In this document: positions 6,645-46,874 of the stretch, piece after piece
How the letters are laid out: each line of letters starts with the position of its first letter
Position numbering within the stretch: the first letter of the stretch is position 1
Assembly: GCA_029204225.1 (NCBI GenBank)
Contig: CM055102.1
Span: 45,635,484 to 45,699,483, forward strand
Reading direction: 5' to 3'
DNA: 64,000 bases
From: Diphasiastrum complanatum
Lineage: Eukaryota; Streptophyta; Lycopodiopsida; Lycopodiales; Lycopodiaceae
Translations under genes and position numbers: made by a program
The notes under the pieces: generated by a model
Databases searched by the model: none
The model's input: only the letters and a program-made list of their open reading frames with translations
What the model was told of the DNA's origin: nothing

Positions 6645-7387
6645 ATGAAGCTAAAATCACATCCTCTAATAACCTCTATTCCAAGAATGAAGCTCAATAG
6701 GCCGAGATCTACCATCTTAAACTCTTTTGCTAAAGCAATTTTTACATCTCTAATTCCATCTAGATCATTACCACTCAAGATAATATCATCTACATACAAA
6801 ACATGAATAATGATCATGCCATCATGAAAACTTATATACAATGATGGATCATAGGCACTCATTACAAAATTGATGGAAATGAGAAAAGAGTTTAGCCTAG
6901 AGTACCATGCTCTAGGTGCTTGCTTGAGCCCATAAAGGCTCTTCTTCAAAAAACACACCTTTCCTTCATGCTTTGCCTTGATGAAGCCCTCGGGTTGCCT
7001 CATGTAGATCTCTTCCTCCAAATAACCATTGAGGAATGCATTTGTGAAGTCAAGTTGGAATAGCTCCCAATTGAAGGTTGTAGCAAGACTAATGATCAAC
7101 TTGATAGTAACAAGCTTAGCCATAGGAGCAAAAGTCTCATCATAATCAATGCCTTTGGTTTGTAAAAAACCTTTGGCAACAAGCCTAGCTTTATGCTTGC
7201 TTATTGATCCATCTTGATTATACTTCAATCTAAATACCCACTTACAATCAAGAGGTTTCTTCCCTTGAGGAAGATCCACAAGATCCCAAGTATGAATCTC
7301 AATAAGAACATCATACTCTACTTGCATAGCATCCATCCAACTTTTAGACTTACGAGCATCTTCATAGCATGTTGGCTCATCTAACAT
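6614..7387 (-). pseudogene. Copia pol: reverse transcriptase domain
   Basis: A 257-residue frame with the standard copia RT order: CKWVFRLKYNQDG, KGFLQTKGIDYDETFAP, the QLDFTNAFLNGYLEEEIYM block, [11 protein letters not shown], and an intact catalytic YVDD within HVLYVDDIIL. It overlaps both neighbours out of frame (shifts near 7385 and 6640), so the polyprotein is broken, but the catalytic core itself is undamaged. Compared with other relics in the window this is one of the best preserved RT domains. Confidence 0.9.
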
Positions 7388-8932
7388 TGAAGTAAGAAAG
7401 GTGTAAGATGTGAAAGATGATGAGCCTTCCCTTTGATCACCTTGACCATCATAGGTGGCTTGGATCTTGCCCTTGTAGATCTTCTTGGAATTGCATCTTG
7501 AGGTGGATCCTCAAGTTCTTTTTCACTTGGAAGCTCCTCCTCCCTCCTAGCATGATCCTTGGCATCAAGATCATTAGTAGCATTATCATCCAAATCACAA
7601 GCATGTCCTTCATAAAAAATAACATCCCTACTCACTATCACCTTGCTAGTGATGGGATTGAAGACTCTACAACCTTTGCTATTCTCACCATATCCCACAA
7701 AGATGCCTTTGATGGATGTTGCATCATCCTTCCTTCTCTTATCCAAGGATTGGTGTACATAGCAAGTGGATCCAAAAACTTTGAGATCCTTGAGATTGGG
7801 CTTCTCTCCAAATAGAGCTTCAAATGGTGTGATTCCTCCAATGGCTTGGTTTGGCAATCTATTGCACAAATAGTTAGCACAAGTTATTGCTTCACCCCAA
7901 AATGGTTTGGATAGAGAAGCATCTAGCCTTAAGGCCTTGGCACACTCACAAAGAGATCTATTTCTTCTCTCACTCACTCCATTTTGTTGAGGGGTGTATG
8001 GACATGACAACTCCCTCTTTATGCCATTAGAACTACAAAAGTCAATCAACTTATTGGAGATATATTCACCTCCATTATCACTCCTTAATACCTTAATCTT
8101 GGTACTAAGTTGATTTTCTACCAAAGTCTTGAACTTTACAAAAGAATCAAACACCACTGATTTGCTAGACAAGAGGTACATCCAACAAAATCTAGAATAG
8201 TCATCAATGAAGATTACATAGTACTTGGCACCACCATTAGACTCATGTGAAAAGCTATGAACATCCGAATGGATGAGTTCAAGAGGAGAGTTTGATCTTG
8301 ATGTAGATCTTGAGAAGGGTAGTTTGTAAGCCTTTGAGAGGCTGCATGCTTCACATCTCTTCCCACACTTTGACAAATGCTTGGGGAGTCCAACTGCAAG
8401 CTCCTTTGCAACCATAGATTCCATGGCTTTGTAGTTGGGGTGGCCCAACCTTTTGTGCCACAGTTCCACCTTTGATAACTCCACCTTTGCCAAGTTAACA
8501 CTCTCCACTGCAACATTAGCATCAATCTTAAACAATCTATCTTGCTTAAAGCCTTTGGCTATACATTCATTTTTTCTAAGGATGGAACAAACTCCATGCT
8601 TAAATTGTACATCTAGGCCATTATCCATTAACTGGCCAACACTAAGCAAATTCTTGGTTAACTTAGGAACATAAAGAACATTATCAAGATTCATCCTTTT
8701 GGATGATCCCACATACAAGGGAATTGTTCCTATTCCACTTATCTTACATTCTTGACTACTTGCAGTATAGATTAATCTATGTAAATCATTGTAAGAAAGT
8801 AAAGTGGAGCATCTGTCCTTTTGATATGTCATGTGGGAACTAGCCCCACTATCAATCCACCAAGAACCATTGGTGTTGCTCTTGGATGATGGTGGTTTGT
8901 TGGAAACCATCAAGGATGACTCTTCATCCTCC
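7381..8932 (-). pseudogene. Copia pol: protease, GAG-pre-integrase and integrase
   Basis: The open frame of 510 codons starts at 8913, though a readable frame extends upstream to a TAG at 8932. Protease shows WWIDSGASSHM, with the catalytic Asp-Ser-Gly intact. The GAG-pre-integrase region has LWHKRLGHPNYKAM and the CX2C pair CEAC. The integrase core has HSDVHS, LRSDNGGEY and PQQNGVSERRNRS, giving the D, D and E of the catalytic triad. The C-terminal part has the usual FGSTCYVH and KGIFVGYGENSKG motifs. It ends in a frameshift before RT. Integrase inserts the cDNA into nuclear DNA. Confidence 0.92.
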
Positions 8933-30352: not shown

Positions 30353-31156
30353 CTAGGACTCTAGATATTTCGTTTGGTCGTCCATGTTGAGCTCCTTGAG
30401 CTCTGCATCGGCACTTAGATTCACCTTTGACGTAGAAACTGCAGGCAATGTTGGCTCCTTTTGACCTCGCGTCAACTGGTTTGTCACTGTTGGATGTCTT
30501 TCATTAAAAAGATGAGTTTTCGCTTGGTCACACAAGGTGAGCTCCTTGAGCTCTGCATCGGCACTTGAATTCACCTTTGATGTAGAGACTATAGGCAATT
30601 TTGGCTCCATTTGTTCCCGTGCCAGCTGGTCTGTCACTGTTGGTTGTCCTTCGTTAAATAGGTGAATGAGATTGGGAGGAATGGTTGGCTCAGGTTCATT
30701 TGTGTCATTCTTTTCTAGTTGGTCCCCTGGCACAGCTCTGACGACACAAGGTCTCCTGCCATTATATAATAACACAAGGTTAACCCCTTTTGCCAAGAAG
30801 GCCACCACATGTTCGTTAAACCAACTTAATCCCAAAATAGCGTCGAAGGCATCCATCTTCAAGATTGTGAACGTTAGTCGATTCTTCCAGGCTCCCAGAG
30901 AGATTGGTAAGTTGGTTGCCAATCTACAAGTGGTCATTGTACCTTTCGCGGTCTCCACACAAATAGGAGTCACATTTTCTTCACATTGGATGTCCAATTC
31001 TCCTGTCAGTTTTTCTGACAAGTAGTTATGAGACGCCCCCAGGTCTACCATGAAGTAAATGATCCTGCCTTGAATACAGCCTTTCAGGTACAATAACTTG
31101 GATCCTCTCGCAGGAGTCGCCATAAGATGTTCACGATAAGCCGCAAGTGCCCCTAT
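30353..31156 (-). pseudogene. Retropepsin-like protease with repeated C-terminal extension
   Basis: In the same frame as gag but separated from it by a TAG (31157-31159). The start could be the ATG at 31123 if expressed separately. It contains the gypsy protease fold signals FMVDLGASHNYLS and FDAILGLSWFNEH. The catalytic triplet reads Asp-Leu-Gly (31037-31045) instead of Asp-Ser/Thr-Gly, which should impair cleavage. The last ~100 residues are two copies of a 50-residue unit (HLFNE..PTVT.QL), encoded by a 150-bp direct repeat at about 30380-30680. The frame stops at 30353 and is not followed by RT. The region 29997-30352 is non-coding. Confidence 0.8.
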
Positions 31157-34311: not shown

Positions 34312-36060
34312 CTTGCAAGTTGTGAAAGCAATTGGGTACGCTAGATGAAGCTTGATCCTGGAGATACAATCTCATAAGATGACATTCCCAAAGTTTTGTA
34401 TATGAGGTCAAAGGAAGCATGGATCTCTACAATGAAGCTACTTTTAGGAATTTTGTTTTTTTAGCACTCCTTCGGGATCTCAACCATCAATCTGTCATTC
34501 AAAATATCATTGCTCTCTCGTTTCTTGCACTAGTCAATATTAATCTAAGTATATTTTACTAATTCTTAGAAAAGACATCTCTCTTATGAGTAGTCCTATT
34601 GTCCTCTCACCCAAGAATTTATTAATCATGATATCACTAGCCTCTCACTCTTACAATATCAGTCAATAGTTGATTTACTCTGCATTATTGATTGTTGATG
34701 TGAATTCTCTTCATCTATCATTACTAAAGCCATGTTTGAAGTCTTTGTCTTAGCTAAAAATATGTTTGACTGGGTCTCCTCTTTGTGCCTTACAATCATC
34801 TATAGAAATCAATACGTCATATTTTTGAGGTATCCCTTTGGTCTTAGAATATCTCTAAGATAAGATGTGTACGTATATTTCCATTTTTAAAAATAAGCTA
34901 TCTAAGTGAGACCAACCACATGTCCTTCACTCATAAGGTGATGGTCATGAAACACATCATTGCCTCCTAACCTAATCTATTCATGTTAGCCCTTCTTTTT
35001 ACTAGAAATATGACGAAAGTCATTGGCCAAATTATCATGTTTTCTTTTGAAATGAAAAGAACTGCCTTATCTCATTAAAAATTTGCACCCTTTCCAGCAA
35101 AATAGTTGGCCTAGAAATTTGGATTAAAAGAGAATCAGCTATCTTAGAAAATATGGTCTCATTTAAAGAAAACAACCAACTCTAGACAACGTCTTACATG
35201 CTGCATTGCTTATCAAAGTCCATGACTCCCTCACCATGAACCCATTTTGTCGCATTTATTACTTCTTATGCAAGAGAATGAACATCTAAATGAATCAAAT
35301 TGGGAGGCCCTTTGGATCTTGATGTAAATCTTGAATATGATTGCTTAGACAATGCACATGTTTGAAAAATCCTTGCATATTAGAAAAACTAGAAGATAAA
35401 CTAACAACAATAAACTTTTCAAACAAAGCATCCATGCACTATATGACCCAACTGTTGGGGACCGTTTGGCTCTACGAGATGAGCCTTTCCCCTCGATGCA
35501 TGAACTACGCCTATCAGATTCGAATTAGACTAATATGTCGAATGACTTGAATGATTCTACTTAATCCTAACCTTGAAGTCATCAGAATTGATGAGATTGA
35601 TTACGTAGACAAACACAAAGTTGTTAGATTGTTAATTGCTAGAGCATTAGGTAGTTCAAACAATTCTATACGAGAGCAGTATCAAATAAAAACGGTTAAT
35701 TAGAGAAGCATACATTCATACTGACATAAATCTGAATGCAATAAGACAATGGATTGATTTAGCAAGTAATAGGTACATGTCAGTTGAAATAAGAAGCACA
35801 AAATAGTTACAATGATAATCACATACTTAAAAGTAACTTTGGTTCTATGGCAACTTCGATGATTCTAAGATCATTCGATAGCTTACTAACTCTCTGTCAA
35901 TTTAATCGACGTAATAACATCTATAATATATGCTTCAAATCAATTCACAATACTTGATCGATTGACTTGCTTGATTGATGCTTATTGGATTTGCATATCT
36001 TGATAAGCTGTACATTTGTTTAGATATATACAACTATAGACATGTCACTTACACAACAAG
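34312..36060. other. Intergenic DNA with a faint copia integrase trace
   Basis: Mostly AT-rich and unrecognised. At about 35279-35365 the minus strand resembles the pre-integrase/integrase junction of the copia element at 8.3 kb (shared words GAACATCTAAATGAATCAAA-like and GATCTTGATGTAAATCTTGA). A sequence TGTTGGGGACCG at about 35454 resembles an LTR start but has no partner. Confidence 0.45.
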
Positions 36061-36066
36061 GATTTA

Positions 36067-36276
36067 AACTTAGGTGACCAGGTGCTTCTTTATACATCAA
36101 AGAAGCACCTCAAAAAATTGAAATTCCAAAGTGAGGGACCGTATGTTATCAATAGAATCTTTCCTAATGGTGTAGTCAAGCTGCAAACACTTGACAGAAT
36201 ACTCCTAGACATTGTCGTCAACGGTGGTTGTCTACGGTGGTATTACGAGGAGTTGTTTTTTGTTGACCCAACTTAA
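36067..36276 (+). pseudogene. Gypsy integrase C-terminal fragment
   Basis: The plus frame reads LGDQVLLYTSKKHLKKLKFQ, then EGPYVINRIFPNGVVKLQTL and VVNGGCLRWYYEE, the C-terminal DNA-binding part of a Ty3/gypsy integrase without chromodomain. It ends at TAA 36274-36276, about 20 bp before an unrelated LTR. No polypurine tract intervenes, so it belongs to an older element that was interrupted. Confidence 0.75.
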
Positions 36277-36296
36277 TCCTCATTCCCTGGTATATA

Positions 36297-36772
36297 AGTT
36301 AGAAATCAGAGTTAATCTGATATACATTTTATGTAAGCTCTAAATGTGATATTGTAATCAGTGTACAGTTAATTAGATTTGCTGTATTCAGTTGTGTTTG
36401 GGACGTGACTTGTTAGGATATATTGATCCGGCACTGATCCCGTAGCCGGCTACTTGGATTAGCCGAGTAGCCACACGTAGGAAGAAATTAGCCTGTACAG
36501 TGATTTTGAGTTCATTATGCTATATTCAGGGGCATGTCTTGGGTTTGTTAGTATATGTGGCCATATTGGGCCTAACTCTAGTTTGGCAGGTGGTAGGCCA
36601 GTTTAGTGACACCTGTTGAGCCCATGCAGTTTGGGGCTTTGCTATATGTACAATGTTTCTTCATAATAGATTGGACTTTTGTTGTGCCATCTTTGAGAGC
36701 TTGTGAGATGTGGCTATGGTGATTGTGTGATGTGATCTGCATATTGCACTAGATTCTATCATAATTTCAACT
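36297..36772 (+). repeat. Left LTR of the outer LARD-like element
   Basis: Ends AGTTAGAAAT and AATTTCAACT form an imperfect inverted repeat. It contains a conserved GGATATATTGATC...CCGTAGCCGGCTACTTGG segment with a nested palindrome (TAGCCGGCTA), shared by all four LTRs of this family. Confidence 0.9.
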
Positions 36773-38983
36773 TGGTATCAGAGCGTCAGGGTGTTGCAGG
36801 TATGCACAATCCGGTGGAGCTATGGGATAGCATCTTTCACCAGGACAAAGCACTCAGAGCGTCTCAGGAGAGAGGACTCCATACAGGGGCAGTCCGGATG
36901 GCAGGAGACAACAAAGTTCCTTCGATCGGAGCTTCGAGGAAGATCAGAACGATTGTTGTAAGTGGATTCCGGGGAGAATTCACGGAGAAACTTGCAATTT
37001 CGGTGATTTCAGGGAAATCATTGATGATGGCTAATTAATTGACTGTGTAGGCAGCCGGTTGAAGCAATTGGATTTGTAAGAGAGCTGTAAAGAACAGTGT
37101 TACACAGCCAGGGCAGTTTATAGGGTGTAATCTGGTGGAAATCGGTGGAAATTTCATTTCGATTTCGTGGGGTGTTGACGGTTTGGTGAGAAAATCAGCC
37201 TAATTGGAGTCAATACTGAACCAATTTCAGAGCCATAAATTGCTTCGAAAAGGCAGAGGTAGGGTGACCTCTATGAGGCAGGTAGCTGCAAGAAGAATCT
37301 CAGAGTGAGATTCACAAAAGCCCAAGAAATCTCTCTCAGTTTTGAAGCTAGGGTTTTATAGCATAAAAGCCTGGATCTTTCACCAAAGGCTGCTGTTTTT
37401 GGATCTGTGAAGCAGCATAGAAGGGCGTCCTGATGAGGAGAGAGAGCTAGAAAATGGCCGTGGGCGGCCGCGTGCTGGAGAAAGCGCTGGAACAGTTCTT
37501 TGGGACAGCTAAAAACCCTCATAAACCATAGCTATGGAGGAGAGAGAGCAAAGAAAGAAGGAGGACCTCGCGGGTCTGCTCGCGTGCTCCCAAGTAGAAG
37601 GTGCATTTAGTGCATGGAAGTGTGTTGCGGCTGGAGGGACACGGGTCAGCACACGGATATCCTGAGAACCATTCGATCTTGAAGACCAAAGGTCAACGGT
37701 ACAATTTAAATCTCAGGGAGCTATGTAAGCAATTGGATGGAGGCAGTCCATTGGATGGGCTTGAAAGAGGGCCCTGAAGGGTGAAGGGTAAAAGTGTCCT
37801 TCACTTCATTAAAAATTTTCAGCATGAAATGGGTTGAAGGGACCCGAAGGGCAGAAATGCCATTTCCTCATTAAAAATCTTCAAAATGAAGATACAGTTC
37901 AAATTTGCAAGGCAAATTGGTTTTGGGGCTATCTTTAGCTAGAGGGCACCTATTTTGGCCATCCTTGGGCCAAAATGACTCTTGAAACTGGCTGTCAGAG
38001 CCAACGGACAGAGCGACGTCATAGAGCAGGGAGAAAGGTGGTTTGGGGTGTTTTCATCACCATTCTATCAAGCGAAGTGTGGGTGACCTAGTGATGGGCT
38101 ACATTCACTATTTGGGTACCGTAGGGCCAAATTTGGGGGCAATTTTTGCCTGGTGAAACCTGATAGAAGGCGGTACAATGAGGCATTATTGCTTCGAAAT
38201 CATTATTACTTACTCCTGACAGGTAACAGGGTGTTTGGAAGTGGTAAATGCGGTATGAGAGCGAATGGTAGCGGAATTGTGTGGAGAAAGCTACTATTGG
38301 CGACGAAAGTGCAGTTGGCTCCTTACTACTCATCATTGGCGACAATTTTGAGGGGGCAAGCAATCACAAGTGAGAGCATGGTTTGCCAGTTATGGGTTAA
38401 AAATTCTCGTGATCAGGCTCAAATTTTGGGGTTCGAACCAACCAACATCAAGTGGCATTTTGGGGGAACGCTCTCACATGCATAATCGGCAATGACATTG
38501 TCGAGTCAGGTGATAGCTGCATTGACACACACATCTGTAGCTTGGAAATTTCTCGTTCGGAGGGGAATATGGGCTAGCTTGGAGGTACACACATTTTGGC
38601 GGTCACGGGTGATGAAAGTGCAAGGTGGTGCCAGTTGGAAGCCATTGGAAAGATAGCGGACTTACATTGGACGAGCTGTGTGTGGGACACGTAGAGGATG
38701 AAGAACGGGTCAATAATCACACTTTGGATGCTCTTGGTGAGTGGTGAGTGTGATGATTTTGTGGTTTTGCAGTCACTAAGTCAATTTTGATCAAGCCATT
38801 GTAGCTGTGGAGCAGTGTATCAGGTTTGTCATCGAGGAGATACACCTCAACTGCCAGTTTGGATAAGTCAAGTCAATTTGCCATATCAGTATTGCATCAG
38901 GGATGTAGATTCCAGTGATGACAGGGTGCAGATCGTTTGGTTTGGGCCATGGAAGATCTCATAGGGTCAGTTGGAGGGATATT

Positions 38984-39436
38984 AGTAGAAATCAGCTTGT
39001 GATCTGATTCATTAGTATAAGCTCTAAATGTGATGATGTAATTAGTGTAAGTTTATTTGGTTTACTGTGGACGTGACCCGTTAGGATATATTGATCGGAC
39101 ATTGATCCCGTAGCCGGCTACTTGGGTTAGCCGAGTAGCCACACATAGGAAGAATTAGCCCGTACATAGTTATTTATAGTACTTGCTATACTTGGGGGCA
39201 TGTCCCAAGTCTGTTGGTCGAATTTGGCCATATTGGGCCCGAACTTAGTTTGACAGGTGATAGGCCAATTTTAGGACACCTACCTTTTCATGCAGTTTGT
39301 GAATACTCTATTGTACAATGTTTCTTTGTAATCTATTAACTTTTGTTGTGCCATCTTTGAGAGCTTGTGAGGAGTGGCTATGGTGATTGTGTGATGTGAT
39401 CTGCATACTGCACTAGATCCTAACAGAATTTCAACT
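38984..39436 (+). repeat. Left LTR of the inner LARD-like element
   Basis: Starts AGTAGAAATC (one T lost relative to the other copies) and ends AATTTCAACT, next to the primer-binding site. Confidence 0.9.
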
Positions 39437-42400
39437 TGGTATCAAAGCCTCAGGGTGATGCAGGTATGCACGATCCGGTGGGGCTATGGGATAGCGTCTT
39501 TCACCAGGAAAAATAGCACTCAGAGTGTCTCAGGAGAGAGGACTCCATATGGGGTATCGGCAATCCGGATGGCTAGAGACAGCAAAGTTCCTTCGATCGG
39601 AGCCTCGAGGAAGATCAAAATGATCGTCGTAGGTGGATTCCAGGGATAATTCATGGAAAATCTTGCAGCTTCAATGGTTTCAGAAAAATCATCGATGGTG
39701 GCTTCATAATTTCACTGTGTGGACAGCCGTTTGGTGCAATGGGGCTTGCAAGGGATTTTCAAAGAGCAGTGATGGAGAGCCATGGCAATTTACAGGACCA
39801 AATTTGGTTCAAAATGGAGAAAATTTCGAAAATTTCCAGTTTTGTGGGGTGTTGACGGATTTCGTGGAAAATCAGCTTGTTTGCAGTCAATATCGCATCA
39901 ATTGAAGAACTGTAAATTGGATCAGATTACTAGAGGATGAGCTGCAAGAAGAACCACTGAAAAATGTGGAAAAATGCCCAAGATATCTTCTTCTTTCTTG
40001 ACAGCTAGGGTATACAGTCTTAAAGCGCTAAATCTTTGGCTATAAGGAACGTTTTTGTGAGCTGTAAATGCATGTATGAGGGCACCCTGGTGAGGAATGG
40101 TAAATTCCAGAAGGCCGTGGGCGGCCGTGTGCCAGAGAGTGTGCAAGATCAGTTTCTTGTGTGTAGCCAAAGACCCTGGCAACCATAGCTTGAAAGCTTG
40201 AGAAAGCGAGAAGAGAGGAGGAGAGGTCGTGGGCTGCCTCACGTGCGCCCAAAAGGAATGAAGCCATAGTGCTTCGAAGTGGTTAGCGACCGGTGGAGTC
40301 ATGATCAGCACGCGAATGGGCCAACAGCCGTAGGATCAAAGTGACTGAAGATCAGTGGATCAGATAGCGTGTTGGAGGATGAGGCAGGGCCGTTGGATGG
40401 GAAGAAGCCATTGGATTGGCTTGAAGAGGGACCATGAAGGCTTGAAGGCCATTACTAAAAATTCTTCATTAAAAATTTTCAATAGAAATGGTTGAAGGGA
40501 CTCGAAGGGCAAGAAATGCTCTTTCTTCATTAAAAATTTTCAGAATGAAAATTCAGTTCATTTTTGCAAGGCAAATTGTTTTGGGCCTAGCTTTAGTGAG
40601 AGGGCACCTTTTTTGGCCATCCTTGGGCCAAAATGACCCTTGAAACTGGCTGCTTAGAGCCAATGGACAGACGACGTCACAGAGTAGGGATAAACGCATT
40701 TCGGGGAGTTTTCATCACCATTCTATCGAGCGGAGTGTGGGTGACCTAGTGATGGGCTACATTTGCTATTTGGGTACCGTAGGGCCAAATTTGGGGCAAT
40801 TTTCGGCTGGTGAAACCTGCTACAGGGCAGTACAATGAGGCATTATTACTTCAGAATCATTATTACTTACTCCTGACAGGGTAATAGGGTGTTTAGAAGC
40901 GGTAAATGCAGTATGGGGGCAAATGGTAGCAGAATTGTGTGGAGAAAGCTAGTATTGGCGACGGAAGTGTAGTTTGGCATCGTGACTACTCATCATTGGC
41001 GACAATTTTGAGAGGGCAAGCAATCACAGGTGAGAGGTAGGCATGGTATGCCGGTTACAGGTGAAAAATGCTTGTGATCAGGTTCAACTTTTGGAGTTAG
41101 AACCAACCAACGTCAAGTGGCATTTTGGGGAAATGCTCTCACAGGCATGATCAGCACTGACATTGTCGAGTCAGGTGATAGCTGCATTGACAAATGCATC
41201 TATAGCTTGGAAATTTCTCGTTCGGAGGGGAATATGGGCTAGCTTGGAGCTAAACACATTTTGGCAGTCACGGGTGATGAAAGTGCAAGGTGGTGCCAGT
41301 TGGAAGCCATTGGGAAGATAGCGGACTTGCATTGGACGAGCTGTGTGTGGGACACGCAGAGGATGAAGAACGGGTCAATAATCACACTTTGGATGCTCTT
41401 GGTGAGTGGTGAGTGTGATGATTTTGCGGTTTTGCAGTCAGTAAGTCAATTTTGATCAAGCCATTGTAGTTGTAAAGCAGTGTATGACAAGGTGCAGATC
41501 GTTTGGTTTGGGCCATGGAAGATCTCACAGGGTCAGTTGGAGGGATATTGGCATGCACAGTCATGTGAGAGACTTGATGGTGGCTTTGGAGTTCACATAT
41601 GAATGTATTCTCAGGGAGTGGTTTGGAACCATTCACAAGAGCATCTTGGAGCTAGCTTGGGGAAATACAGGTGGGCACTACAGGGTAGATGCTCAGATCT
41701 TTGTCATCAGGGATGGCATTGAAATACTTGGTAGGTATAGCACTGCAGGATGACATGGGATGATCATCAAGGGGCAGCTATTTCATATTGGACTTGAGTC
41801 TTTGGATTGGACAGGATTTAAAGGGGTGATTCATGATGAAATCAGGATACTGCAAACGCAAATGGGCAAAGCGTGAAGCTTTGAGAGCCAGCTCTATGTT
41901 GGAGAGCTGATGGAGATCGCACGGGGTGTGATCAAAGGGCAAACACTATGATGGGTGTTTTGCTAGCGATCTACTGCAGGGGACATTGATGGTGAGGACT
42001 TCATGGTCTGCTCATTTGGGAGTACAGGTTGGCATTACAGTAGGGAGTTAGTCATTGGCATTGGCATCGATGGGGAGGCATCTACCATCATGGGCGTGGA
42101 TAAGCTAACTATAGCTTTCATGCATTTGGCTATATTTGTAGTAGTCTAGGCTTGGCACAAGTGTTGGAATTTCCATGGTGCAGATTCTCAGGTGGTGAGA
42201 TCATGGGGAAGCCTCTCAGAGCCATATACCTCAATACGATCAGGGAGACAGTAGTCTCGGGATCCCGTGAGCGACAACTCATGGATAAGCTTGCGTTGGC
42301 ATGATGTCGGGTGGCACATAGCCAGGGAGAGTGAGCAGATGCTAGGAGCCAGGTGAAACAAGTGATGCTTTGGAGTCGGCTTATCTAGCAGGATGGTGAC

Positions 42401-44120
42401 CAGGATCGAAGACATCAGGTGAGCATAGTATGTGGATGACTAGTCCATTGGGGTGGCACTCAGAGAGATGCTACAGTTGCTCAGGTATGGATGATGTTCT
42501 TCAGCTAGTGCATCATGTGGTGATCTAGGGACGGGTCATGCCTACTTGGAGGTAGGTGGCATGGAGTGTACCTATGGTGGTACATATTCTGAGGGCATGG
42601 AGAGCATTACGGGGTGATGTGGATCCAGCATGCCCATGGTTGTGAGCCAACAGAGATGGAGATGGTTGCTCAGGGAGTGACAGTTGATACTTTGGCGAGT
42701 GTTCAGGTGAGTTGCATGGTTATATGTAGTCTCCAGGTTGGCGTCACATGTTGTGTCTATCCATCATTATTTGGTAAGCAGGATACAGCTTTTGGTTAGA
42801 TCCAGTTGGAGTCTAGTTGCACTACAGGTGGACAGATTCTTGGGGAGCTATCAGTGGATAATGGATACTTGGTGATCAGATGGGTATAGGGTTCTGGAGC
42901 TATCCTACCTGATATGCTATGGATCGTGGGTGAGTTACTCATCATGATAGTGTATCTAGTTTGAATTTGCTTCGGCTTGGATGCTATGATGGATACAGTG
43001 TTGGTGAGATAGGCTCCTTGGTGGGAGGCCTATGTACTGATCAAATCAGAGTTGGCAACGTCAAGCATGGAAAGTTGAACCTACATGGGATGTAGGACAA
43101 GCTGATCATCATCAGTATCTCTGGGAGGTGGGCGAACTACTCAAGTATAGCCTATGGTGAGGTTTGTGTACATTCATTTATTGAGTCCTTGGTAGACTCT
43201 TGTGCTTGGAGCATGGGGAATGGATGGGGATTAGCTTTCAGGAATTATTGGACAGGATGTCAGGGCAAAGCGGCTTGGAGCATAGCTTTGTTTGGGAGAT
43301 ACATCAGGGATGAGGCTTGGAGCGCTCATTGGTTCGAGATGGTTGATCTTGGATGATGTATGAGGACATCTATGTGATATGCTTGGACGTGAGAGCATCT
43401 TGGTTATAGGTGTAGGCCATGGTTGAGGACCTGATTTGGTGACCAGTGGTGTAGCAATGGATCTACAGGTGGCACAAGTGTTGGTACGACAGGATACCAC
43501 TTATGGACATGCCTTGGTCATGTATTTGAGGCTTTATCATTCGTGTTGGTCTGCATGAGTGTGTGTGGGCTTGCATGTTGCCTTGTCACGAGAGTTTAGA
43601 TCTGAGTCAGAGTTGTATGTGGTTGTGCATTTGCTACGTCAGGAACAAAGTAGTCATTTTATGCTCATTGACTTGTCATTGTCTACTAGTTGTTTATTTG
43701 GTGAGGGTGCAATCTAATGGTGGTAGTAAGATTTCCTCAGGTTGAGCCTCAATCGCTCATGTATGTCAGCTTTACAGGTCTGTGCTTGTAAGTGTCTGAT
43801 AGGATGTCAGCCTAGCTAGATGGAGGATGTAAGTCTCATGGTGGCAGTGGGATTTCCTCAGTTTGAGCCATGTTGCTCATGTGGTCCACTTGTGGTCAAG
43901 TTGGATTGGGAACGAGTCAGTTGGTCAAGAGTGTGATAGACTCTCTATATGAGCATTGTGTTTACTAATACTTTGTGAGTCAAACCTAGTGGTTTGTTGG
44001 TGTGCTTGAGTGTGAGTCAAGTACATAGTAGTTGTGGTATCCATAACATCTTTTGGACACTCCAGACGCTGCTACAATATATTGTTTTTCACTCTTATCA
44101 CATTTGAGCTTAAGGGAGAG

Positions 44121-44573
44121 AGTTAGAAATCAGCTTGTGATCTGATTCATTAGTATAGGCTCTAAATGTGATGATGTGATTAGTGTACAGTTTATTTAGT
44201 TCACTGTATATGGTTGTGTTCGGGACATGACCCGTTAGGATATATTGATTGGGCACTGATCTCGTAGTCGACTACTTGGGTTAGCCGAGTAGCCACACAT
44301 AGGAAGAATTAGCCTGTACATGCTATACTTGGGGGCATGTCCCAAGTTTGTCGTCGAATTTGGCCATATTGGGCCCGACCTTATTTTGACAGGTGGTAGG
44401 CCAATTTTAGGACACCTACCTTTTCATGCAGTTTGTGAATACTCTATATGTACAGTGTTTCTTTGTAATCTATTAACTTTTGTTGTGCCATCTTTGAGAG
44501 CTTGTGAGGAGTGGCTATGGTGATTGTGTGATGTGATCTGCATACTGCACTAGATCCTAACATAATTTCAACT
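44121..44573 (+). repeat. Right LTR of the inner LARD-like element
   Basis: Starts AGTTAGAAATC directly after the polypurine tract and ends AATTTCAACT directly before the ATATT target duplication. It retains a GTTGTGTTCGGGACATG segment that the left copy has lost in a short deletion. Confidence 0.92.
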
Positions 44574-46479
44574 ATATTGGCATGCACAGTCATGTGGGGG
44601 ACTTGATGGTGGCTTTGGAGTTCACATCTCAGTGTATTCTCAGGGAGTGGTTTGGAACCATTCACAGGAGCAGCTTTGAGCTAGTTTGGGGGAATACAGG
44701 TGGGCATTACAGGGTAGATGCTCAGATCTTTGTGATCTAGAATGGCATTGAAATTCCTGGTAGGGATAGCATTGCAGGATGACATGGGATGATCATCAGG
44801 GGGGCGGCTATTTCAGATTGGACTTGAGTCATTTGATGGATAGGACTTACAGGTGCGATTCATAATAGGATGCTGCAAATGCAAATGGGCAAAGCCTGAA
44901 GCTTTGAGAGCCAGCTCTAGATTGGAAAGCTGATGGAGATCGCACTATGGTGAGTGTTTTGCTAGCGATCTACTGTAGGAGACACTGATGGAGAGGATTT
45001 CATGGTGTGCTCATTTGGGAGTACAAGTTGGCTTTACAACAGGGAGCCAATTATTGGCATTGGCATCGATGGAGAGGCATCTACCATCATGGGCGTGGAT
45101 AAGCTAACTATAGCTTTCATGCATTTGGCTGTATTTGCAGGAGTCTAGGCTTGGCACAGGTGTTGGAGTTTCCATAGTGCAGATTCTCAGGTAGTGAGAT
45201 CAGGGATAAGCCTAAAGGAAGTCACTCAAAGCCATATATCTCAGTACGATCAAGGAGACAGTAGTCTCGGGATCCCGTGAGCGGCGACTCAGGGATATGC
45301 TTGCATTGGCATGGTGTCGGGTGGCCAAGGAGAGCAAGCAGATGCTGGGAGCGCCAGGTGGAGCAGGTGATGCTTTGGAGTTTGGCTTGTCTAACACGAT
45401 GGTGACCAGGATCGGAGACATCAAGTGAGCATAGTATGTGGATGACGAGTCCATTGGGGTGGCACTCATGGAGATGCTACAACTGCTCAGGTATGATATG
45501 TCATTTGATGTATGGATGATGATCTTCACCTGGTGCATCATGTGGTGATCTAGGGACAGGTCATGCCTACTTGGAGGTAGGTGGCATGGAGTGTACCTAT
45601 GGTGGTACATATCCTGAGGGCATGGAGAGCATTACGGGGTGATGTGGATCCAGCATGCCCATGGTTGTGAGCCGACAGGGATGGAGATGGTTGCTCAGGG
45701 AGTGACAGTTGATACTTTGGCAAGTGATCAGGTGAGCTGCATGGTCATATGCACAGTGGTCTCCAAGTTGGCATCACATGTTGTTTCTATCCATCATTAT
45801 TTGGTAAGCAAAATGCAGTTATTTGGTTAGATCCAGTTGGAGTCTAGTTGCACTAGAGATTCTTGGAGAGCTATCAGTGGGTAATGGATATTTGGTGATC
45901 ATATGGTACAGGGTACAGGGTTTTGGAGCTATCCTACATGATATGCTATGGATCGTGGGTGAGTTGTTCATCACGATAGTGGATCTAGTTTGCATTTGCT
46001 TTGGCTTGGATGCTATGATGGATACAATTGTGGTGAGATAGACTCCTTGGTGGGAGGCCTATACACTGGTCAAATCAGAGTTGGCAATGTCAAGTATGGG
46101 AGGTTGAGCCTGCATGAGATGTAGGAGAGGCAAATCATCATCAGTATCTCTAGAAGATAGGCGAGCTACTCAAGTATAGCCTATGGTGAGATTTGTGTAC
46201 ATTCATTCATTGAGTCCTTGGTAGACTCTTGTGCTTAGAGCATGGGGAATGGATGGGGATCAGCTTTCAGGACTTATTGGACATGATGTTAGGGCAAAGC
46301 GGCTTGGAGCATAGCTTTGTTTGGGAGATACATCAAGGATGAGGCTTGGAGCGCTCATTGGTTCGAGATGGTTGGATGATGTATGAGGACATCTATGTGA
46401 TATGCTTCCTTTGGACACTCCAGACGCTGCTGCAATATATTGTTTTTTTACCCCTATCACATTTGAGCTTAAGGGAGAG

Positions 46480-46874
46480 AGTTAGAAATCAGAGTTAATT
46501 TGATATACATTTTATGTAAGCTCTAAATGTGATATTGTAATCAGTGTACAGTTAATTAGATTTGCTGTATTCAGTGGTGTTTGGGACGTGACATGTTAGG
46601 ATATATTGATCGGGAACTGATCCCGTAGCCGGCTACTTGGGTTAGCCGAGTAGCCACACGTAGGAAGAAATTAGCCTGTACAGTGATTTTGATTTCATTA
46701 TGCTATACTCAGGGGCATTTCCTGGGTTGTCAGTATATGTGGCCATATTGGGCCTAACTCTAGTTTGGCAGGTGGTAGGCCAATCTAGTGACACCTGTTG
46801 AGCCCATGTAGTTTGGGGCTTTGCTATATGTACAGTGTTTCTTCATGATAGACTGAACTTTTGTTGTGCCATCT
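46480..46874 (+). repeat. Right LTR of the outer LARD-like element, 3' truncated
   Basis: Matches 36297-36691, ending at GTTGTGCCATCT. The remaining end including AACT is missing and a copia fragment follows at once. Confidence 0.9.

Follow-up and report, generated by a model that had tools for sequence, protein, structure and literature searches.

AGTT…AACT ends in nested, apparently non-coding LTR retrotransposons of Diphasiastrum complanatum

The stretch of Diphasiastrum complanatum DNA analysed here (64,000 nt, contig CM055102.1, positions 45635484-45699483; hereafter, the window) contains two nested long terminal repeat (LTR) retrotransposons, both apparently non-coding, whose LTRs start with AGT(T)AG and, in the three complete cases, end with AATTTCAACT. 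The edges of these LTRs read AGTT…AACT and not the canonical TG…CA. Searches of the genome (1,744,706,496 bases in 5,176 contigs) located further insertions of the same family, referred to here as the focal family, with exact target-site duplications (TSDs) next to these ends, together with a protein-coding Copia family, family C, that has them on a different LTR. We consider it probable that the window holds two non-autonomous copies whose cDNA ended in AGTT…AACT and was inserted in trans by a family-C-like integrase, the focal family having moved to this helper through a change at both ends.

Edges of the nested elements and target-site duplications

The inner element (38984-44573) sits inside the outer one, flanked by two copies of ATATT. 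A previous sequence-only reading of the window had proposed the AGTT…AACT ends, and our analysis agrees: the four LTRs are present where it placed them, and the inner edges are set by the ATATT duplication, by a primer-binding site (PBS) flush with the 5′ LTR and by a polypurine tract (PPT) flush with the 3′ LTR (Table 1). These edges cannot be slid, as neither the base that follows the right TSD nor the one that precedes the left TSD matches the LTR ends. An uninterrupted paralogue of the insertion site, GGGATATTGGCATGCAC, is kept in the inner interior at 41540-41560; its presence had also been predicted, at about 41543, but its ATATT is located at 41545-41549. The general features of LTR retrotransposons were found, namely, a pair of LTRs in direct orientation with a PBS and a PPT at their inner edges, and, within the usual 4-6 bp, TSDs abutting the LTRs. 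The PBS motif TGGTATCAGAGC is presumably of the initiator tRNA-Met type. The inner LTRs are 95.6% identical at aligned bases, with 19 mismatches and 38 gap columns (5′ LTR taken without its first two bases), and the outer LTRs are 95.4% identical, i.e., differences of 4.4% and 4.6%, respectively. Among the 23 open reading frame (ORF) pieces of at least 75 codons inside the elements, the five longest gave no Pfam match.

Exact 5-bp TSDs abutting AGT…ACT, as the sequence-only reading had predicted for other copies, were found in seven of the eight distinct focal insertions of the genome sample that were testable at both edges. They are ATATT in the window, CTCAA (L014), CAAAA (L016), CGTAT (L026), GGCGG (C3265 and C5, with identical flanks, counted once; the right LTR ends in TACT) and, in solo LTRs, CCTTC (L064/L079) and CATTT (L077). 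Copies with the same flanks were counted once throughout (L009 with the window, L079 with L064, C12+ with C12-, C15b with C15a, C5:52580814 with C3265, and L146 with L145). In the first set of 20 focal stretches, the remainder showed no second LTR or only a partial one. The second set of 20 focal LTRs comprised three solo places (two distinct), one stretch that missed the LTR start (L074) and 16 LTRs with a PBS or a PPT at one edge; AGTTAG was the start in 16 of the 19 visible cases, and AACT was the end in 20 of 20.

When the focal family was pooled with three other families described below (C, D and D2), the same 5-mer was present on both sides of 14 of the 18 distinct testable insertions, the misses being L013, C5a (four of five letters), C5b and L059. 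Since the chance of an exact match is 1/1024 for each insertion, this agreement is beyond chance, and the spread of the 14 distinct insertions over many contigs led us to reject a single-locus artefact.

A second copy of window positions 35997-45475 is located 306 kb further on the same contig (45978024-45987500), with 99.8% identity over 9,479 bases and with the nested insertion included. Either a large stretch was duplicated recently or the assembly contains it twice; we counted it together with the window copy and excluded it as evidence.

Table 1. Coordinates, within the window, of the parts of the two nested elements
Feature	Position	Strand	Remarks
Outer element 5′ LTR	36297..36772	+	starts AGTTAGAAATC, ends AATTTCAACT
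Outer PBS, TGGTATCAGAGC	36773..36784	+	abuts the LTR, no gap
Outer internal region, left part	36785..38978	+	ORF pieces 36736-37035 and 38087-38482 scanned, no Pfam match
TSD ATATT, left copy	38979..38983	+	
Inner element 5′ LTR	38984..39436	+	starts AGTAGAAATC (one T short), ends AATTTCAACT
Inner PBS, TGGTATCAAAGC	39437..39448	+	touches the inner 5′ LTR
Inner internal region	39449..44109	+	ORF pieces 39925-40335 (minus) and 41445-41750 (plus) scanned, no Pfam match
Inner PPT, TTAAGGGAGAG	44110..44120	+	touches the inner 3′ LTR
Inner element 3′ LTR	44121..44573	+	starts AGTTAGAAATC, ends AATTTCAACT
TSD ATATT, right copy	44574..44578	+	
Outer internal region, right part	44579..46468	+	paralogous to parts of 41545-44109; ORF piece 45215-45631 (minus), no Pfam match
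Outer PPT, TTAAGGGAGAG	46469..46479	+	touches the outer 3′ LTR
Outer element 3′ LTR	46480..46874	+	starts AGTTAGAAATC; right end lost, outer TSD hence unreadable

Two end states in the genome and in the focal family

The PBS motif occurs 81,101 times in the genome, compared with 39 times for the reversed control. Where it is preceded by AAC and one further base (14,402 junctions), that base is A in 9845 cases, T in 4402 and G or C in 155. ACA junctions with a flush PBS coexist with ACT ones, as both were seen among the first 20 listed PBS sites (ACA 9, ACT 5, other 6). Because G and C are nearly absent after AAC, we rejected the view of AACT as decayed AACA; it is a second stable state. A similar restriction was observed at the opposite edge. 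The focal PPT context followed by N-GTTAGAAATC has 648 sites genome-wide, and the 100 listed have A at N in 84 cases, T in 16 and G or C in none, these counts being of places and not of distinct insertions. In family C, the first LTR base is nearly fixed (A 98, T 2, G or C 0, among 100 listed of 818). The two T-start copies of family C gave no 5′ partner where one had been expected; TTAACA, a putative LTR end, is present in one 3′ stretch.

To relate the two edges, U5 ends were fetched for all 16 listed T-start focal copies and for 24 A-start copies, the A-start sample including the first 20 plus-strand listed places that had not been fetched before. Nine T-start places, representing eight distinct copies, were readable, and all end in A (AACA, CACA or AGCA), with right edges placed by homology alone and not by TSDs; one further place was unclear, and six fetched stretches did not contain the end. 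Among the A-start copies, 17 of the 24 were readable and end in CT (14), TT (2) or CA (1, L186). The last base is thus A in 8/8 T-start copies versus 1/17 A-start copies (Fisher p 8e-6). When L013, whose place had been skipped and which ends in CAACA, is restored, 2/18 A-start copies end in A and 16/18 in T (p 3e-5), and an earlier count that added similarity-found copies gave p 7e-5; copies within subfamilies are related, and all three p values therefore overstate independence. Two A-start copies, L171 and L183, have a TTTTAAC background like that of some T-start copies and still end in T. The focal family therefore also holds a TG…CA form, which was beyond the reach of the sequence-only reading, its right edge being placed by homology. 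L186 and L013 are possible mixed-end copies; if they are truly so, mixed ends can integrate.

A coding Copia family and other families with AG…CT ends

The junction CAACT-TGGTATCAGAGC was found 772 times genome-wide and 0 times in the reversed control. Among the 30 such loci listed of the 772, families with other LTRs were present. One of these, family C (L029, L037, L038, L052 and, more distantly, L056), has an LTR of 253 bp, AGTTAAAATAG…TCTCAACT, with a sequence unrelated to that of the focal LTR and with the same ends. Based on Pfam searches of one copy, L080, it has pieces that match Retrotran_gag_2, gag_pre-integrs, rve, SH3_retrovirus and RVT_2, although the rve score (31.5) is slightly under the cut-off of 32.6. 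The order of Copia gag, integrase and RVT_2 is that of Ty1/copia elements. The search for an autonomous relative with the same ends, which the sequence-only reading had suggested, thus led to a coding family. Nine pairs of family C LTRs were fetched, corresponding to seven distinct insertions, together with three single LTRs that proved to be element halves. Five of the seven insertions have exact 5-bp TSDs (ATTAT, CATTC, GTAAG, GACTG and AGCCT), one matches in four of five letters and one has none.

The integrase piece of family C shares 42% identity with its counterpart in a neighbouring Copia element whose 5′ LTR ends in TTTGACA. Among solved structures, the family C piece has a single relative at E 0.1, the integrase chain of PDB 7z0h (E 1.9e-5), which we take to be that of yeast Ty1. 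The focal interior showed no significant similarity to family C except at the LTR-end/PBS junction, with one further match of 25 bases at E 0.4; this dissimilarity fits what is expected for an element mobilised in trans. The features that the two families were seen to have in common are the ends, the PBS and the PPT.

AG…CT ends were also observed in two other families. In family D (AGTTATGGAC…GTAACT), one solo LTR among ten fetched has a TSD, AGTGG, and the second testable copy, L059, has none. Family D2 (L022, about 1.4 kb in total) has the TSD ACCAT. The interior of L059 (2944-3699) gave a weak Chromo-domain match (20 bits, below the cut-off of 25.1), and on this basis family D may be Gypsy-derived, in which case AG…CT ends would be present in both superfamilies in this genome. 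On contig C18, at 48723820-48724196, a family D LTR with a PPT before it and a PBS after it is common to two elements. As the autonomous partner, we rejected L059, for its short interior and missing TSD. The left edge of L046 and L047 is not clear, and the long frame of L045 consists of N.

The genome is very rich in Copia elements: a first look at their reverse transcriptase (RT) family gave 119,352 candidates, and among the 150 scored, several have stop-free frames of more than 1,200 aa, so that some of these elements may be young. The window itself contains, at 7384-8913 on the minus strand, a 510-aa frame with the Copia integrase domains gag_pre-integrs, rve and SH3, part of another element, and a second minus-strand frame, at 30356-31123, for an aspartyl protease of the retroviral type (RVP_2), which is probably of the Gypsy type.

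Interpretation and comparison with known systems

With a flush PBS and PPT, AGTT…AACT would be the exact ends of the linear cDNA; that is, the ends lie where reverse transcription would leave them, and, because the TSDs abut them, integration joins them untrimmed. Both reactive 3′ strands would then end in …AAC-T, while those of ordinary elements end in …AAC-A, the inner GTT/AAC remaining unchanged. We propose that an integrase of the family C type recognises the …AACT form and may carry non-coding families in trans, and that the focal family could have moved between helpers of the TG…CA and AG…CT kinds through a change at each end. Altered end recognition by the integrase, as read from these sequences, is likely, and the coupling of the two ends strengthens it: an end base restricted almost entirely to A or T, and varying together at both ends, points to recognition rather than to indifference. 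It is also possible, though we hold this more tentatively and short of an even chance, that two integrase codes, TG…CA and AG…CT, operate in one genome and that a non-coding LTR family went from one code to the other when its outermost base pair changed on both sides. In that case, the focal family would document a natural change of helper by non-autonomous elements.

Several observations weigh against the main interpretation, that of AGTT…AACT elements carried in trans. Insertion L013 is ambiguous and can be read either as AG…CA with a 5-bp TSD (GGAAT) or with a 6-bp TSD, and C5a, C5b and L059 lack an exact TSD. In the second set of focal LTRs, three visible starts deviate (AATTAG in two, ACTTAG in one); two A-start copies end in AATT, and L186 combines an A start with an AACA end. 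The placement of the T-start edges and the relatedness of the copies, described above, belong here as well. Finally, L080, the only family C copy read, has its coding sequence split over several frames, and the first acidic position of its integrase, which we take to be catalytic, is not acidic.

Mixed-end copies such as L186, and possibly L013, are what would be expected if the terminal base were nearly neutral, with reverse transcription setting the ends, no trimming, and a permissive integrase joining any terminal base. The flush PBS in both end types, the flush PPT in the focal context and the presence of both end types within one family also agree with this explanation. Nevertheless, a permissive integrase would leave G and C ends too, which amount to 155/14,402 on the U5 side and to 0 of 100 listed in each of two families on the U3 side, and the joint variation of the two ends argues against a nearly neutral base; we therefore regard this explanation as unlikely. 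A single historical double change, in which a 3′ LTR mutation was copied to both LTRs and was then tolerated and inherited, would account for the coupling as subfamily history, with no switch of helper. Such a mechanism of U3 change is given for the tomato element TARE1 in PMC3701649, and related focal copies do have the same state. However, AG…CT ends occur in all four families, and the focal LTRs have no detectable similarity to those of C, so that several families are involved; in addition, L171 and L183 end in T on the U5 background of T-start copies. We give this account, too, a low probability. A misplacement of the edges, with the real TG…CA pair further inward, as the CA three bases inward in TTTCA-ACT might suggest, is refuted for practical purposes by the TSDs, which in each of the 14 exact cases abut …ACT rather than CA, and AGTTAG has no TG at the matching place.

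In the usual view, the terminal CA is the fixed part of an LTR end. Here, 4402 exact AACT-PBS junctions stand beside 9845 AACA-PBS junctions, and both forms occur in one family and at both of its ends, which makes end recognition comparable among natural copies; the focal family is, in this sense, a natural test of how integrases recognise DNA ends. On the practical side, AG…CT elements would probably be lost from certain genome annotations. Among the titles and abstract openings listed, our literature search found no report of AG…CT ends in plants or in Copia elements, of several AG…CT families in one genome, or of both end forms in one family; most subscription papers lay outside the search, which makes this weak evidence of novelty.

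Non-coding LTR derivatives of the Dasheng type are mobilised in trans. Like them, the focal family keeps two LTRs, a PBS and a PPT, has no matched coding sequence and has an interior unlike that of its candidate helper; the difference is that the focal family and the candidate helper have AG…CT ends in common. Dasheng is mentioned in one line of PMC3701649.

Non-canonical ends on record in plants include TA…CA, TG…GA, TG…TA, TG…TT and AA…CA (PMC3701649, PMC5659011). TARE1 (TA…CA, tomato, Copia-like) and Tos17 (TG…GA, rice) resemble the focal family in being LTR elements of plants in which a terminal base differs, but a single end is changed in each, whereas the focal family is changed at both (PMC3701649). 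According to that paper, its authors did not find a TG…CA copy of TARE1, in contrast to the coexistence of both states in the focal family. The TGTT and AACA subfamilies of Rosaceae likewise lack TGCA ends, comprise Copia-like as well as short non-coding families and have TSDs; they differ in having one canonical end (TG…TT or AA…CA) and, for AACA, TSDs of 6 bp (PMC5659011).

The letters AGTTA…TAACT are themselves not new. In insect errantiviruses of the Zam clade (Ty3/gypsy), the motifs are AGTTAYRK…TAAYT, and most LTRs read AGTTA…TAATT or AGTTA…TAACT (Benachenhou et al., PMC3601003). The sequence-only reading took non-canonical classes to have at least a T at the start, which is not supported, given these elements and the AA…CA ends of the Rosaceae AACA subfamily (PMC5659011). 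Families D and D2 read AGTTA…TAACT, as in the Zam clade, and the focal family and family C mostly read AGTTA…CAACT. The insect elements have a Gypsy-type pol, with RT before integrase, whereas family C has the Copia order, with Pfam matches to Copia gag and RT.

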